DNA of 64,000 bases from Agrococcus casei LMG 22410 (GTDB lineage: Bacteria; Actinomycetota; Actinomycetes; Actinomycetales; Microbacteriaceae), in NCBI RefSeq assembly GCF_900163565.1, contig NZ_FUHU01000038.1, positions 62,001 to 126,000 of the forward strand. The letters are read 5' to 3'. Each line of letters begins with the position of its first letter. Position 1 is the first letter of the stretch. Shown in pieces: positions 23,871 through 31,268 of the stretch. Made by a program: the position numbers and the translations under genes. Below the pieces are notes generated by a model, which saw only the letters and a list, made by a program, of their open reading frames with translations, did not search any database and had not been told where the DNA came from.

Positions 23871-26800
23871 TCACTCGGCCCTTCTCATCCGCATCGTCAG
23901 CACGAGTCCGGCTCCCACGAGTGCGAGCACCAGCAGGATCAGCAGGGCAGACACCGTGCCGCCCGTCTCGGGCAGGTCGTCGTCCGGATCGGTGGTCGCC
24001 GCATCCGTCACCGTGATGGGTGCTTCGGCCTGCAGTCCCGAGTCGGCTCCCTCCGCCACGATCGTGTGATCGCCGACAGGGGCGTCAGCGGGAATCGTGA
24101 GCTGGATGCGGAACGCGCCGTTGTCGTCGGCCGTCACCTCGGTGAGGTGCATCGGGTCGGAGTGCAGCGCAATCGACACGGTCTCTGCCGAGCCGAAGCC
24201 GCGTCCGACTGCCTCGACGGTGCCGCCCTGAACGACTTCGCTCTGCGAGATCGTCAGCTCTGCCTCGAGCACGGGGGTGTCGCGTACGGTCACCGTGACC
24301 GGGTCAGAGACCGAGGCACCGAAGGCAGCGTCGTCTTCGGGGATGAAGTGCGCCACGTAGGTGTGCTCCCCCGACGTCTCGACCGGAATCTCGGCCTCGC
24401 CGACACCGCCCGAGACCATGGCAGTCGCCACGAGCTCATCGCCCTCGCGGAACTCGATCTGGCCCACGGCGTCTTCCGGCGTCACTTTCGCGGTGAGGGT
24501 GAGCAGGTCACCGGCCGCGAGGTCCTCGGGCTGTGCAGCCAGCGTGACGGCAGTCTCGACCGGCTGCGGCAGGTCTGCCTGCACCCGAACCTCAGCACGA
24601 GCCTCGGTCATCGAGACCTCGCCCACTGCTGTCACCGGCACGGTGCCGTCGACCATGTCGTCAGGCACGTCGAGCGAAGCCGCGACCGCACCGTCGGAAT
24701 CCGACTGCACCGTCACTGCCTCCTCGTTGCCCAGCTGCACCGCGACCTGCTCGTCAGGGGCGAACCCGCTGCCGGTCACGTCGACCGAGTCGCCGGGTCG
24801 CACCGCTTCGGGGCTGACGGCGATCTCGGGCTCGTACTCGACCGCGGCTGCTTCAACCGTGATCTGCAGCTCGGCCTCAGCCGACTTCATGCCGTCGTCG
24901 ACCGTCACCGTGACTGCGTAGTCGCCCTCAGCGGCATAGGTGTGGCTCGCGCTGACCTGGCCGTCGGAGACGTCCGTGGCGACCACGTCGCTGCCGTCAC
25001 CCCAGTTGACTGTGGCGGTCTGCGCATCCGCTCCTCCGCTGACGGTCGCCAGCGTCGACTCGAACTCCTCGCCGGCAGTCTGCACGGCAACCTCGGCCGG
25101 CTCGACGACCAGCGGCGTGCTCTCGCGCGCACCGTCGGATGCGATGGCGAACACGTGCACGCGTCCGTCGCGCAGCGAGCCGGGCTCATCAGGCATCGTC
25201 AGCGACTCGACGACCTTCGGAGCACCCTGCTCGTCGACATCGAGGTCGATCGCCGCAGTCGCATAGATCGCCGTGTTCTTGGGCGTGCCGGACTCAGCGG
25301 CTGTTCCGCGCAGTCGGCCCTCCGAGATCGCGACCACCGTGTTGTCGAAGGCGGGGCTGCTCACGCTGCCGACCCAGTCACCGAACGAGATCTTCACGAT
25401 CTGCTCGCTGCCGTCGGTGAAGTGCAGCACAGCCTCGGGCTCGCGCGGCGTCTCATTCGCGGTGCCGACGAACGCAAGCTGCGTGGCGCCGTCACCGAGG
25501 TCGATGCTCACCGTCTGGCCCTCGCCAGTCAGGTTGTCGGGCTCGCCGGGCTCGACACCGGGCAGGTCGTAGGTCAGCTCGGTGCCTTCGATCGCGACGG
25601 TCTCGCCCTGCACGAATCCCTCGTCGAGCAGCTTCGCGCGGTCGTAGCCGTAGCCGAGGCCGTCGCAGTCTGCTGCGGTGGCGCCGAGGTCGCCGATGCA
25701 CACGTTGTTCAGTGCGCCTTCGAACGTCGCGTCGCGGGTGACCCGAACGCTCGCCTGTGCCGTCGCAACCGCACCGGCCGAATCACGAGCCGTGATGGCC
25801 GCCGTGTAGAGGCCCGGTGCCGTGAAGGTGTGCTCGGCCGTGACCTTCCAGCCGCCCAGTGCATCGCGGGTGAGCTCTGCGGTCTGTGCATCTGTGCCGT
25901 CACCGTAGTCGACAGTCACCTCGTAGCCCGATGCATCGGCTTCGCTGCCGACCACGGTTGCCAGCGTGCCGTCGAAGAGCTCATCGACCTCGACGCTCTG
26001 CTGCGCAGCCGCCGTGACCGAGAGATCGCCTGCATCGGCCGGAGCTGCGAACAGCTCGAGCTCGGCAAGCTGCAGCGCACTGCCGTCGGCTGCATCGACC
26101 TGCAGCCTGAAGCTCGTGAACGCACCGTCGTCATCGATGCCGAACGGACGCGTCTGGGTGTCCCAGACGAACTCCTGGTCTTCTCGAGCATCGAGCTCGA
26201 CCCAGACTTCGCCGTCCACAGAGCCCTCGAGCGTCCATGAAACAGGCGCTGTCTCAGGGTCAGTGCTGGTCAGCGTGTACTGGCCGAGGCGGACGGGCAC
26301 GGATGCCGTGGTCCAGGTCAGCTCAGCGCTGCCGCTGTCGAACGTCGTCGACGAGAGCATCGTGTCGTCGACCAGCGAGTCGACGGGAGTGCCGTCTGCC
26401 GCCGCCAGCGCACCGAGCTCGGGATCGGTCGCGTCGACCATCGTCTCGGGCACCTCGAGCTCCTCGCCGAGGTCTTTCGCACCCCAGTCGCTGGGCTCGT
26501 CGGTCATGGCGAACGTCATCGTTCCGCCCTCTCGCAGCAGGTCGCCGTCGAAGGTCGTGGTCGAGATGTCCTGGCCGTTCACGTTCACGCCCGCGACATA
26601 GTCGAGGCCGTCGGATGCGCCGGGCGCCTGGATCGTCAGGTCGCCGCCGGCGAGGTGCACGGTTGCGCTGTCGAACAGCGGCGAGCCGATGGTGTAGTCG
26701 CCGGATCCGACCTCGAGAGGGTAGAAGCCGAGGGCTGAGAACACGTACCAGGCCGAGAACTCGCCGTTGTCCTCATCGCCGGGGTATCCCTGGCCGATGT

Positions 26801-29800
26801 CGGAGCCGACGAAGAGCCGCTGCTGGATGTCGCTGATCAGCGCCTGAGCGCGAGCGGGGTCGCCCGCCTCTGCCAGCACATACGGAATGTGGTGCGAGAT
26901 CTGGTTCGACATGCCCAGCATGCCGAGCCGCACATCCCGCGCCTCCCGTGCTTCGTGAATGCCGGAGTAGCTCGCGTCCTCGCGCGTCGTCAGGAACTCG
27001 TCGAACTCTGCCAGCAGGCCCTCGCGGCCTCCGTAGAGCGCAGCGAGTCCGTCGACATCATGCGGCGCGTGGAAGGCGAAGGTCCAGGCGCTCGCCTCGG
27101 TGAACGCTCCTCCCCATGCCTTCTTGTCGAACTCGGCGCCTTCGGGCCAGCTGCCGTCGCGGTTGCGAGCGGTGAAGGTTCCGGCCTCCTCGTTGTACAT
27201 CTCGACATAGTGGGATGCGCGGGCCGTGAAGTAGTCGGCCTCTTCGAGCAGGCGGTCGACTTGGTCTGCGGGCGTCTCGGGGTCTTCTGCCAGGGCGGTC
27301 GCCATGTTGGCGATGCCGAAGTCGTTGATGAAGCCCTCGAGGCCCCACGACGCGCTCTCGTGCGTGTCGGATTCGGTGAATCCGAGGAAGATCGACTCGG
27401 CCAGGCCCTTGCGCCCGACCGCGTTCGACTCGGGCAGCACCGTCGCGTTCTTGACTGCTGCGTCGTATGCCTCGAGCGCGGTCGCATTGCTCAGCGCTCC
27501 GGCGAGGTACGCCTCGGCGAATGCCACATCCGAGCTGGTGCCCGTCATGAGGTCTGCGTAGCCCGGTGACGACCAGCGAGCGATCCAGCCGCCGTCGCGG
27601 TACTGCTGCACGAAGCCGTCGACGAGCTCTTCAGCCACATCCGGGTACAGCAGCGAGTACAGCGGCCAGGCCGTGCGATAGGTGTCCCAGAAACCGTTGT
27701 TGACGTAGATCTTGCCCTCGACGATCGGGGCATTGGTCTCAGTGTCGGTCGCCTCTCCCTCTGTCGGACTGACAGGCGAGGCGTATGCATACTCGGGTGC
27801 GTCTGCGGTGCCGACGTTCTCGAACTGCGAGTTCGGGTAGAGGTTCAGACGGTAGAGCCCCGAGTAGAGGTTCACGAGCTCAGCGTCGCTCGCGCCCTGC
27901 ACGTCGGTGATGACGCCGAGGCGGTCGTTCCAGGCGTCCTGCACTGCGGTGTGCGCCTGGTCGAACGACACTCCGTCGAGCTCGAAGCCGTAGTTGGCAG
28001 CCGCCTGGTCCTGTGAGATGAACGAGGTCGCGATGCGCAGCTCGACGGTCTTGTCAGACGAGGTGTCGAACGCTGCGTAGCGTGCGCTGTCGTTGCGGTC
28101 TCCGTTGTTCGTGGCACCTGCCGCGATGGGCTGGCTGTCGAACTCGCCGTAGACGAACATGCGGGTGCGGCCGGGCCATCCCGAGCCGCCGTCAACCCAG
28201 CCGCTGACGACGCTGCCGTCGACGCTGAGCTTCGAGTCGTCGACAAGCTGGTCGACGAGCACCGAGCTCGCGTCGTCGACGAACGAGAAGCGGTAGATCA
28301 CGCCGTGATCGGTCGCCGTGACCTCTGCCGTGATGCCGTTGTCGAATTCGACCTGGTAGATGTCAGGGCGGGCAGTCTCGTTGTCGTGCGAGAAGGTGAG
28401 CTTGCGGTCGTCGAGTGACGATGTCGGGTCTGCATTGGCAGCCGGCAGCACCGCCAGCTGGTTGCGGTCGCCCATCCAGATGCTCGGCTCGTGCGAGATG
28501 CCGATGCCCTCAAGGGCGGGGCGGTTCTGCGCGGTGTTCGACTGCTGGTAGTGGTACAGCGTGCCGACGTTGTCGGCGTCAGTCATCGGTGTGACGAAGT
28601 TGAATCCGTTCGGCCATGCCGCCGCCGGAAGGTTGTTGCCGCGCGAGAATCCGCCGGTCGAGTTCGTGCCGCGACGAGTGTCGACGTACGACACGAGGCC
28701 ATCGGAGGTGTCACGCTGCTCTGCCGCCCCGATGACGACATCGTCGAGCCAGCCTGCGACCACTGTGTCTGCATCCGGAAGCTCGACGGCATTGACGCCC
28801 TCGCCCGGGTGCTCGTAAGAGAGCACGATGTCTGTGACGGTGCGCCCGGCGAACGCGCTCAGGTCGATCGTGACGCTGTTCCACTGGTCGGGGAACAGCG
28901 CGTTCGAGAGGCCCTGGTCGACTGCGTTGGCGCCGTAGCCGTAGGCATCGACAGCGTCTGTCTCAGAGAGCTTCGTGCCGTCGTCGAGAATGAGGTCGAC
29001 CGCGGCGAACGTCGAGGCATACGACTGCCCGCTGTCGAGCTGCGGGAAGAGCTTGTACGAGAGCTCGCTGTCTGCCTCGATCGCGACGTCGACGTCGCTG
29101 TAGAGCAGCGTGCTGGATGCAGCGGCGCCCGTGTCGAGGTGGTGGCCGGAGTACTTGAGCGACTGCACGCCGGTGAAGCCGACATTCGTCTTCGCCGTGT
29201 ACGACATCGTCGGGCCGGTGCTGACCTCTGCTGTCAGCGGGGCCGGCTCGGCCACTGCGTCTGCGACTGCGATCGGCTCCCAGCCGGCCAGCTGCACGAT
29301 GCTGCCCGACTGGTTCTCGGTGACCTCGAGGCGCAGGTGCTTGTAGGTCTCGCCGGTGGCCTCGACCTCGTAGACATTGGTCGCAGCGCGGTCGTCGAAG
29401 GTCTCGCCCGAGCGCGAGTCGAGCAGCGTCCACTCTTCGCCGTCCTGCGAGCCGAGCACGCGGAAGCTGCTGGGGTCGCGCTCCTCCGCGTCATTGGCCG
29501 AGGTCAGCGTGTATCGCACGATGGGCTGCGCCTCGTCGAACTCGTACTCGACCCATCCGGTCGATTCGAACACGAGCCACTTCGACCCCGCCATGCCGTC
29601 TGCCAGGTTCGCTGCCACTTCGTTCGGCGAGTTCTCGCCCGATGTCGTGACAGCGGCGACGTGCCCGAGCGCGCTGCCCGGCGCGAACTGATCGCCCGAG
29701 ACGTTGACGGCTTCGCCCGTCGGCTCGAGCACGGGTGCGCTGTCGTCGGCCTCGAACGAGGAGTGGAAGCTGCTGTTCAGCGGCTCGGCATTGGCCGGAA

Positions 29801-29903
29801 GCGGCGCAAGCATCGAGAATGCAGCGGCTGCGGCGACGATCACGCCCAGAGGACCGCCGATGCGGCGAGTAGTTCTGACCTGGGCCTTGCGCTGCTGCGT
29901 CAT
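23871..29903 (-). CDS. Giant sortase-anchored GH92 alpha-mannosidase
   Basis: 2010 residues. A basic N-terminus and signal peptide end at ANA-EP (about residue 41). Carbohydrate-binding, discoidin-like modules occupy about 60-400. A GH92 domain spans about 405-1140, with GFWDTYRTAWPLYSLLYP and GDEDNGEFSAWYVFSALGFYP (about 1040-1060). There follow a second discoidin-like domain (about 1150-1285), PKD-type domains (DYGDGTD, NWGDGSD), an NPCBM-like module, Ig-like and IPT-like repeats, then LPETGG (1977-1982), a hydrophobic helix and a basic tail. GH92 enzymes are calcium-dependent exo-alpha-mannosidases; this one should trim mannan or N-glycans on the cell wall. The ATG at 29903 sits behind weak GAAAGAG; upstream in-frame codons up to 30017 lack a signal peptide at the right place. 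Confidence 0.92.
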   Translation of the reverse strand: MTQQRKAQVRTTRRIGGPLGVIVAAAAAFSMLAPLPANAEPLNSSFHSSFEADDSAPVLEPTGEAVNVSGDQFAPGSALGHVAAVTTSGENSPNEVAANLADGMAGSKWLVFESTGWVEYEFDEAQPIVRYTLTSANDAEERDPSSFRVLGSQDGEEWTLLDSRSGETFDDRAATNVYEVEATGETYKHLRLEVTENQSGSIVQLAGWEPIAVADAVAEPAPLTAEVSTGPTMSYTAKTNVGFTGVQSLKYSGHHLDTGAAASSTLLYSDVDVAIEADSELSYKLFPQLDSGQSYASTFAAVDLILDDGTKLSETDAVDAYGYGANAVDQGLSNALFPDQWNSVTIDLSAFAGRTVTDIVLSYEHPGEGVNAVELPDADTVVAGWLDDVVIGAAEQRDTSDGLVSYVDTRRGTNSTGGFSRGNNLPAAAWPNGFNFVTPMTDADNVGTLYHYQQSNTAQNRPALEGIGISHEPSIWMGDRNQLAVLPAANADPTSSLDDRKLTFSHDNETARPDIYQVEFDNGITAEVTATDHGVIYRFSFVDDASSVLVDQLVDDSKLSVDGSVVSGWVDGGSGWPGRTRMFVYGEFDSQPIAAGATNNGDRNDSARYAAFDTSSDKTVELRIATSFISQDQAAANYGFELDGVSFDQAHTAVQDAWNDRLGVITDVQGASDAELVNLYSGLYRLNLYPNSQFENVGTADAPEYAYASPVSPTEGEATDTETNAPIVEGKIYVNNGFWDTYRTAWPLYSLLYPDVAEELVDGFVQQYRDGGWIARWSSPGYADLMTGTSSDVAFAEAYLAGALSNATALEAYDAAVKNATVLPESNAVGRKGLAESIFLGFTESDTHESASWGLEGFINDFGIANMATALAEDPETPADQVDRLLEEADYFTARASHYVEMYNEEAGTFTARNRDGSWPEGAEFDKKAWGGAFTEASAWTFAFHAPHDVDGLAALYGGREGLLAEFDEFLTTREDASYSGIHEAREARDVRLGMLGMSNQISHHIPYVLAEAGDPARAQALISDIQQRLFVGSDIGQGYPGDEDNGEFSAWYVFSALGFYPLEVGSGDYTIGSPLFDSATVHLAGGDLTIQAPGASDGLDYVAGVNVNGQDISTTTFDGDLLREGGTMTFAMTDEPSDWGAKDLGEELEVPETMVDATDPELGALAAADGTPVDSLVDDTMLSSTTFDSGSAELTWTTASVPVRLGQYTLTSTDPETAPVSWTLEGSVDGEVWVELDAREDQEFVWDTQTRPFGIDDDGAFTSFRLQVDAADGSALQLAELELFAAPADAGDLSVTAAAQQSVEVDELFDGTLATVVGSEADASGYEVTVDYGDGTDAQTAELTRDALGGWKVTAEHTFTAPGLYTAAITARDSAGAVATAQASVRVTRDATFEGALNNVCIGDLGATAADCDGLGYGYDRAKLLDEGFVQGETVAIEGTELTYDLPGVEPGEPDNLTGEGQTVSIDLGDGATQLAFVGTANETPREPEAVLHFTDGSEQIVKISFGDWVGSVSSPAFDNTVVAISEGRLRGTAAESGTPKNTAIYATAAIDLDVDEQGAPKVVESLTMPDEPGSLRDGRVHVFAIASDGARESTPLVVEPAEVAVQTAGEEFESTLATVSGGADAQTATVNWGDGSDVVATDVSDGQVSASHTYAAEGDYAVTVTVDDGMKSAEAELQITVEAAAVEYEPEIAVSPEAVRPGDSVDVTGSGFAPDEQVAVQLGNEEAVTVQSDSDGAVAASLDVPDDMVDGTVPVTAVGEVSMTEARAEVRVQADLPQPVETAVTLAAQPEDLAAGDLLTLTAKVTPEDAVGQIEFREGDELVATAMVSGGVGEAEIPVETSGEHTYVAHFIPEDDAAFGASVSDPVTVTVRDTPVLEAELTISQSEVVQGGTVEAVGRGFGSAETVSIALHSDPMHLTEVTADDNGAFRIQLTIPADAPVGDHTIVAEGADSGLQAEAPITVTDAATTDPDDDLPETGGTVSALLILLVLALVGAGLVLTMRMRRAE

Positions 29904-29939
29904 GGGGACTCTTTCGATTGCACTGCGTTGTGTCTCGAT

Positions 29940-29959
29940 GTATGACATCGCTGTCATAC
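29940..29959. promoter_or_regulatory. Perfect palindromic operator between GH92 gene and LacI gene
   Basis: GTATGACA (29940-29947), TCGC, TGTCATAC (29952-29959). Eight-base arms pair perfectly and the centre is CG, as in LacI/GalR-family operators. On the minus strand a TACGCT hexamer (29972-29967) would place the GH92 transcription start near 29960, so a repressor bound here would block the start of transcription. Confidence 0.75.
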
Positions 29960-30067
29960 TGGCACGAGCGTAGCACAGGGCTTTCGCTTGCAGAAGAGCA
30001 GATTCGCGTGCAGACACACGATGTTTCGTGAGACTCTGTCCATACCGTTCATCACTTCAGGAGAGTC

Positions 30068-31075
30068 ATGGCCGATCCCATCAGCGCCCCCGGCGGTCGA
30101 GCCACGCTCGCCAAAGTGGCAGAGCGAGCCGGAGTCAGCCTCAAGACCGCATCCCGCGCACTGAGCGGCGAGGCCTACGTCACCGACGAGACCCGCTCGA
30201 AAGTGCTGCAGGCGGCCAGCGACCTCGACTATCAGCGCAACTCGGCCGCAAGCCTGCTCGCCAGCGGCAGGCTCGCCGACTCGATCGGACTCGTGAGCGG
30301 CGGATTCACCAACCCGTTCTACTCGGCCCTCGCCCAGGCTGTCGAAGACGGCGTGCGCAATCAGGGCATGCACCTGTCGGTCGCAAACTCCGACGAGTCG
30401 CCCGAGAAGGAGCGACTGGTCACGCACGACCTCGCCGACCGCCAGACCAAAGCGCTCATCGTGGTCTCGTCGATGACCGACCACGCCGAGTACCGGCAGC
30501 TGCAGGCGCGCGGGGTTCCGGTGCTGTTCGTCGACCGCCCCGCAGTGAATCTCGAAGCAGACTCGGTCGTCTTCGACAACCAGGAGGGCGGCCGCCTCGC
30601 TGCCGCCCACCTGCTCGCGGCACAGCACCGCCGCATCGCTTTCGTGGGCGACTACGCGTGGCTGCCGACCTACAGATCGCGCATCGAGGGCATGGCGTCG
30701 GTGCTCGACGAGAGCTCGGCAGAGTGGCAGTCGCTTGTGAGACCGGATGCGCACAGCATCACGGATGCACGGGCTCGGGTAGGAGAACTCCTGGCGATGC
30801 GCGAGCCCCCGACCGCACTCGTCGCCGGAAACAACCGCATCCTGCTCGGAATCCTCGAGGAGCTCTCCCCCGTTCCCGTCGCCGATCGACCGGCCATCGT
30901 GGCCTTCGATGACGTGGAGTGGGCACGCGTGCTCGGCATCACGGTCGTGGCCGGCGAGACCGACGTGATGGGCCGGCGTGCCGCTGAGCTCACCGTCGCA
31001 AGGCTTGCAGATCGCACGCGCCAGACCGAACAGGTCGTGCTGCCGATGCGACTGACCAACCGCGCATCCGCGTAG
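30068..31075 (+). CDS. LacI-family transcriptional repressor
   Basis: 335 residues. The helix-turn-helix and hinge are ATLAKVAERAGVSLKTASRALSG (split here; residues about 13-35) and LDYQRNSAASLLASGR with the minor-groove Leu/Ala hinge. A periplasmic-binding-protein-like effector domain follows (SIGLVSGGFTNPFYSAL to the C-terminus). Such proteins usually repress sugar genes and are released by a sugar or sugar phosphate. The ATG at 30068 has AGGAG 5 nt upstream. The gene is divergent from the GH92 mannosidase with the palindrome at 29940-29959 between them, so it most likely controls that gene. The inducer could be mannose or a mannose-derived sugar. Confidence 0.9.
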   Translation: MADPISAPGGRATLAKVAERAGVSLKTASRALSGEAYVTDETRSKVLQAASDLDYQRNSAASLLASGRLADSIGLVSGGFTNPFYSALAQAVEDGVRNQGMHLSVANSDESPEKERLVTHDLADRQTKALIVVSSMTDHAEYRQLQARGVPVLFVDRPAVNLEADSVVFDNQEGGRLAAAHLLAAQHRRIAFVGDYAWLPTYRSRIEGMASVLDESSAEWQSLVRPDAHSITDARARVGELLAMREPPTALVAGNNRILLGILEELSPVPVADRPAIVAFDDVEWARVLGITVVAGETDVMGRRAAELTVARLADRTRQTEQVVLPMRLTNRASA

Positions 31076-31185: not shown

Positions 31186-31195
31186 CTCGAATTTG

Positions 31196-31268
31196 TGGAC
31201 CTGAGGGGACTCGAACCCCTGACCCCCTGCATGCCATGCAGGTGCGCTACCAGCTGCGCCACAGGCCC
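31196..31268 (-). tRNA. tRNA-Ala (anticodon GGC)
   Basis: 73-nt cloverleaf on the minus strand. The acceptor stem GGGCCTG pairs with CAGGTCC (one G-U), D-arm GCGC/GCGC, anticodon stem CCTGC/GCAGG with loop ATGGCAT giving anticodon GGC, and T-arm AGGGG-TTCGAGT-CCCCT. The discriminator is A. CCA is not encoded (the 3' side continues CAAATT), as is common in Actinobacteria. It lies downstream of rsfS in the same direction. Confidence 0.97.

Follow-up and report, generated by a model that had tools for sequence, protein, structure and literature searches.

The window, by which we mean the whole 64,000-nucleotide stretch of Agrococcus casei LMG 22410 DNA that was analysed, has a G+C content of 66% and belongs to a genome of 2.79 Mb. 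It holds a gene for a LacI-family regulator and a gene for a GH92 exo-alpha-mannosidase, which diverge from a 164-bp gap (29904-30067). An earlier note had placed a perfect CG-centred palindrome between a LacI gene and a mannosidase gene; the 20-bp inverted repeat GTATGACATCGCTGTCATAC does lie inside this gap, 36 nt from the GH92 start codon and 108 nt from the lacI start codon (Table 1). Immediately behind lacI, on the minus strand, is a tRNA-Ala (GGC) gene (31195-31268).

Table 1. Positions of the genes and of the observed and predicted elements in the lacI/GH92 region, numbered from the first letter of the window.
Feature	Position	Strand	Remarks
GH92 exo-alpha-mannosidase gene	23871..29903	-	start ATG at 29903
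Putative palindromic operator, GTATGACA-TCGC-TGTCATAC	29940..29959	.	invariant block in five orthologous gaps
Core TGACATCGCTGTCA within the palindrome	29943-29956		
-10-like element TACGCT of the GH92 promoter	29967..29972	-	orthologs have TAGCGT or TAGCTT
Weak -35 position TTCTGC, 17-nt spacer	29990..29995	-	predicted
LacI-family regulator gene, 335 aa	30068..31075	+	start ATG at 30068, divergent from the GH92 gene

The GH92 product is 2010 amino acids long and has a signal-peptide-like N terminus with F5/8C, GH92N, GH92, PKD and Ig-like domains. The GH92 domains scored well above their cut-offs (PF07971, 392 bits versus 24.6; PF17678, 127.4 bits versus 34.5). At the C terminus, LPETGG is followed by a hydrophobic stretch and then by RMRRAE, a succession of motif, hydrophobic tail and basic residues which we take to be a sortase-type anchor. 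Judged by these features, the protein is likely a cell-wall-anchored exo-mannosidase. It is encoded by the only GH92 gene in the genome.

The regulator (P0001) has a LacI-type helix-turn-helix (HTH) at residues 13-58 (PF00356, 50.8 bits versus a cut-off of 27) and a sugar-binding domain (PF13377, 63.9 bits versus 26.5, residues 179-334; PF00532, 54 bits versus 22.2). Its recognition helix reads VSLKTASR, and a hinge-like stretch, NSAASLLASGR, has the Ala and Leu that would meet a central CG (AA-51 and AA-54, with the register set by eye against Camas et al.). Because P0001 scored below the cut-off of all 18 NCBIfam models listed, its effector could not be named by homology. Among named organisms, its closest relatives come from Microbacteriaceae.

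The two arms of the palindrome, GTATGACA and TGTCATAC, pair at every position, and its centre is TCGC with the CG at 29949-29950. Since the T and C flanking the CG are not complementary, the true symmetry is 8 + N-CG-N + 8. When the window was searched with GTATGACA-N4-TGTCATAC at up to 3 mismatches, the palindrome was the one match (0.01 expected in shuffles). The genome scan that the earlier note had proposed returned an exact match at the lacI/GH92 gap only; no other place matched with fewer than 3 mismatches, and five had exactly 3. The shorter form TGACA-N4-TGTCA occurs exactly at two other places in the genome (L260 and L261), and both were set aside for want of a central CG. The inverted repeat by itself was rejected as evidence, since perfect 8+4+8 repeats are common in the window (5 found versus 2.9 expected under a first-order model). 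As about three such repeats are expected in a window of this composition, the palindrome could in principle be one of them, arisen by chance. It is, however, the sole CG-centred perfect 8+4+8 repeat in the window, where 0.35 would be expected (0.0008 in the gap), and orthologs retain its core, so that a chance origin has next to no probability. The significance of the palindrome therefore rests on its position and its conservation.

The gap was aligned with those of four relatives, two from the same genus (L006/L089 and L007/L090), Frigoribacterium sp. JB110 (L035) and Microbacterium halotolerans (L036). In all four relatives the LacI protein is 64-67% identical to P0001, a divergent GH92 gene is present (73-77% identical in the catalytic part) and TGACATCGCTGTCA is found in the gap. 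Mean column identity across the five gaps is 58%, and the longest invariant run is 16 consecutive columns, which read TATGACAGCGATGTCA in the GH92 sense. Upstream of this run, at the -10, the element CTGTG.TA...T is conserved as well. The five gaps amount to about three independent lineages, since L035 is nearly a copy of L036, and L089 is closely similar to L090. Two further genomes, G407 and G277, have a LacI protein 68-69% identical and a GH92 protein 79-81% identical, with TGACAGCGGTGTCA in the GH92 sense.

In a maximum-likelihood tree built from a selection of 53 LacI proteins, the window LacI falls in a group of 13 with xKTASR helices (support 91/96), 12 of which are GH92-linked (95/88). 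These 12 are the window, L035, L036, L089, L090, L098, L138, L129, L164 and L085-L087, and every one of them has the exact TGACANCGNTGTCA core (TGACA-NCGN-TGTCA) just upstream of GH92. The thirteenth member is L142, in which the site and the LacI gene are 1.8 kb apart and GH92 was not found within the 12-kb stretch. L085-L087 have lacI behind a GH92 gene of the same orientation. Their site stays close to GH92, directly upstream of it and some 6.9 kb ahead of lacI, so that it belongs to the GH92 promoter rather than to a divergent gap.

Outside this clade the core is less constant. In the neighbouring group, whose regulators have xKTVSR helices, the site often departs from the exact core by one or two changes. 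Eleven GH92 loci have an xKT[VA]SR LacI in the stretch, and the exact core was found in 5; of the other 6, L203, L206 and L218 have a site with one mismatch, and L204, L205 and L216 one with two mismatches, which could be due to chance. The exact core thus marks the KTASR clade more than it marks all GH92-linked LacI proteins. The earlier note had made its claim turn on the palindrome being present in related GH92-LacI loci, which proved correct for the clade and holds only in part for the wider xKT[VA]SR set, with its six altered sites. The GH92-linked regulators of L203-L206 have LKTVSR helices and altered operators such as TGTCAACGTTGTCC, possibly by drift of half-site preference inside the helix class.

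On the minus strand, TACGCT lies 7 nt before the palindrome and 10 nt before its core, and the GH92 promoter region of the window reads TTCTGC, 17 nt, TACGCT, 10 nt, core. The promoters in L085-L087 read TTGACG, 18 nt, TACGCT or TAGCCT, 9-10 nt, core, and TTGGCA occupies the -35 position in two same-genus orthologs. Inspection by eye found that 10 of the 12 GH92-linked clade members have a TAnnnT resembling a -10, 9-13 nt ahead of the core, and that the remaining two (L129 and L164) have no clear -10 ahead of the site. A generic sigma-70 scan of the region returned no promoter match. From TACGCT, transcription of GH92 is predicted to start near 29960. The earlier note's placement of the palindrome at +1 to +20 follows from this element by rule of thumb, and the spacing of TAnnnT in the relatives agrees with it.

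A palindrome at the predicted 5' end of a message might also act as RNA, as a hairpin controlling the stability or translation of the GH92 mRNA. The 20-nt RNA folds to an 8-bp stem (-9 kcal/mol, z -4.2), and in L129 one outer pair is altered on both sides (G-C to C-G), a change that a hairpin could produce too. Against this, TGACA and TGTCA keep their letters, and L035 and L036 have lost the pairing immediately outside them; the loop retains its CG although it is unpaired, and throughout the family the presence of the site follows the type of helix in the LacI protein. We consider a role as a hairpin very improbable.

The pattern TGACANCGNTGTCAT was present in 93 of 398 family genomes and its reversed control in 6 (control counted by eye). 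The set used for comparing helix and site consisted of 82 loci with 102 TGACANCGNTGTCA sites from among the matches listed; 8 of the loci are the window itself or were entered through a LacI or GH92 gene, and the others were entered through the pattern. A LacI HTH was found with a site within 350 bp upstream for 43 sites (37 loci), and 45 of the 82 loci had no LacI HTH that near. In 35 of the 37 loci the helix was xKT[VA]SR, the two exceptions being GQTVSR and PSTVSR. Another 36 LacI HTHs had no site in the DNA examined; 33 of them lacked Lys at AA-16, and the remaining three, with xKT[VA]SR helices (L008-L010), have their sites at the distant GH92 promoter of L085-L087. A second test started from the regulators. 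LacI HTH loci were taken from the window's genome (G000, 3 of 3), G140 (15 of 15) and G407 (15 of 23), and 4 of 4 xKT[VA]SR regulators had the exact site in the 350 bp upstream, versus 0 of 29 others (33 loci in three genomes). One of these 29 site-less LacI proteins (L169) has the helix IKTVSN. The counts are not independent, because G140 and G407 were picked for holding sites and many of the site loci come from near relatives.

Two loci with the same 14-mer (L091 in G198 and L092 in G062) were set aside. No GH92 gene was found in their 16-kb stretches, the nearest LacI gene is 1.9 and 4.4 kb away, respectively, and has another helix, and the sites were taken for those of other regulators or for chance matches. 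Apart from the GH92 loci, TGACANCGNTGTCA sites lie by a LacI gene with the helix VG[ILV]KTVSR at 14 loci (L093-L095, L101, L104-L106, L109, L128, L143, L148, L158, L159 and L162). These adjoin a sugar-binding-protein-like gene, and in 6 of the 14 there are two copies of the site 77-79 bp apart. Such loci may form another regulon, distinct from the GH92 one but with operators of the same class.

The site and helix were compared with published LacI-family systems. In the available text of Camas et al. 2010 (PMC2978694), a code restricted to TVSR helices ties AA-15/16 to NT-5/NT-4, pairs G at NT-6 with Arg at AA-20, and links the central CG to the hinge Leu. The corresponding positions in the window are LK at AA-15/16, R at AA-20, G at NT-6, A/C at NT-5/NT-4 and CG at the centre. 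TGACA-TCGC-TGTCA together with a ...TASR helix thus shows the marks of a LacI-type operator, that is, the central CG and the pairing of G at NT-6 with Arg at AA-20. The LacI, PurR and CcpA operators, as far as the same partial source describes them, are like the window site in being palindromes with a central CG and this G/Arg pair, in the regulator adjoining its target and in the operator lying at the promoter. The difference from the published code, in the part available, is the half-site TGACA with Lys at AA-16 and TASR instead of TVSR.

The window's genome has one exact NCGN site and eight NCGN sites with one mismatch. Six of the eight fall within predicted reading frames (one right where its frame begins), and the other two (L253 and L256) look intergenic; for these sites and for those of the relatives, frames were assigned by a simple rule of length and third-position G+C and not by a gene finder. 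With one GH92 gene and one exact site in the genome, the regulon here looks like a single site; a second, weak one may exist.

These counts bear on whether the site could instead be a general catabolite operator of the cre type, to which a different LacI-family protein of the genome binds. The window core fits the cre consensus TGWNANCGNTNWCA, and the synthetic site TGACAGCGCTGTCA was bound by CcpA, according to the available portion of PMC10992428; that synthetic cre was also the only match when literal spellings of the motif were sought in the open-licence PMC literature. The CcpA model (TIGR01481) is also one of several LacI-family models that P0001 matches. P0001 scores only 109.8 bits against it, however, versus a cut-off of 442.35, and a global operator should recur, whereas the exact site occurs once and most of the one-mismatch sites fall inside predicted frames. 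The window site is single, local and beside its own regulator, unlike a cre site. The genome carries three LacI HTHs (PF00356), and no such site was found upstream of the two other LacI genes, whose helices are PATVSR and TTTVSD. Three LacI genes and one exact site make a cre-like site for another LacI protein highly unlikely.

The site may resemble a motif of the proteobacterial LacI-family regulator NagR. NagR is listed as a LacI-family regulator in PMC5343134, the available part of which prints no letters of its motif. The ManR-type regulons for mannose and mannosides (Ravcheev et al. 2014, PMC4052901, in the text available) are like the window in that mannoside genes are under LacI-family control, and differ in that the window's genome shows no second target under the window operator. 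The strings GH92 and TGACA are absent from that portion of PMC4052901.

In the wider family, GH92 was found in 37 of 150 genomes (57 genes after split matches were merged). The exact site was present in 13 of 55 GH92-holding loci and absent from 42, and 8 of the 13 had no LacI HTH in the stretch (L163, L107, L146, L198, L202, L207, L208 and L210). In G140, sites lie at all four scattered GH92 genes (L163, L164, L207 and L210), one of them by an LKTASR regulator, and in G194, of the same genus, at three GH92 loci (L246, L248 and L249). Besides these, G140 has a site flanked by a nusA-like gene and by the start of a gene that encodes a lectin-like domain, and G194 has one that precedes a gene with F5/8C domains. 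Sites at GH92 genes without a nearby lacI suggest a GH92 regulon in these relatives, and the scattered sites of the G140/G194 genus likely represent one. The earlier note's description of one regulator and one enzyme is accordingly right for the window's genome, and too narrow for some relatives, in which several GH92 genes have sites. The titles and abstract openings listed from the open-licence PMC literature included no account of the operator or of a GH92 regulon of the KTASR clade. On balance, we favour the view that the site belongs to an undescribed family regulon for GH92 (alpha-mannan), run by the KTASR clade and shrunk here to one regulator and one enzyme, and that the reading of TGACA by xKT[VA]SR helices extends the recognition rule beyond TVSR.

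Taken on the sequence evidence, the palindrome is the probable operator of the divergent LacI-family protein, which would repress the GH92 gene (probability about 0.92). The clean repressor site that the earlier note had seen here has comparative backing in the clade-wide core and the link between helix and site. A LacI dimer would place one VSLKTASR recognition helix on each TGACA half-site, while its hinge helices would enter the site at the central CG. As the predicted GH92 promoter has this site at about +1 to +20, LacI bound there would stop transcription of the gene at initiation or in early elongation. We infer that the inducer would be a sugar from mannose-rich glycans, either mannose or a short manno-oligosaccharide, which would release LacI from the DNA.

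A LacI operator at the GH92 promoter is very probably what the comparative data describe, as a well-supported case of an ordinary kind of bacterial gene switch. It would provide an actinobacterial GH92 mannosidase with a one-site, one-gene switch whose regulator is predictable from sequence. The 20-bp site and the LKTASR helix offer a test case for Lys at AA-16 setting the half-site choice of LacI proteins and, if true, the reading of TGACA by xKT[VA]SR would give a clean rule of recognition for helices outside the TVSR set that the published code covers. The GH92 regulon could assign a function, the use of mannan, to LacI genes that are named by family alone.
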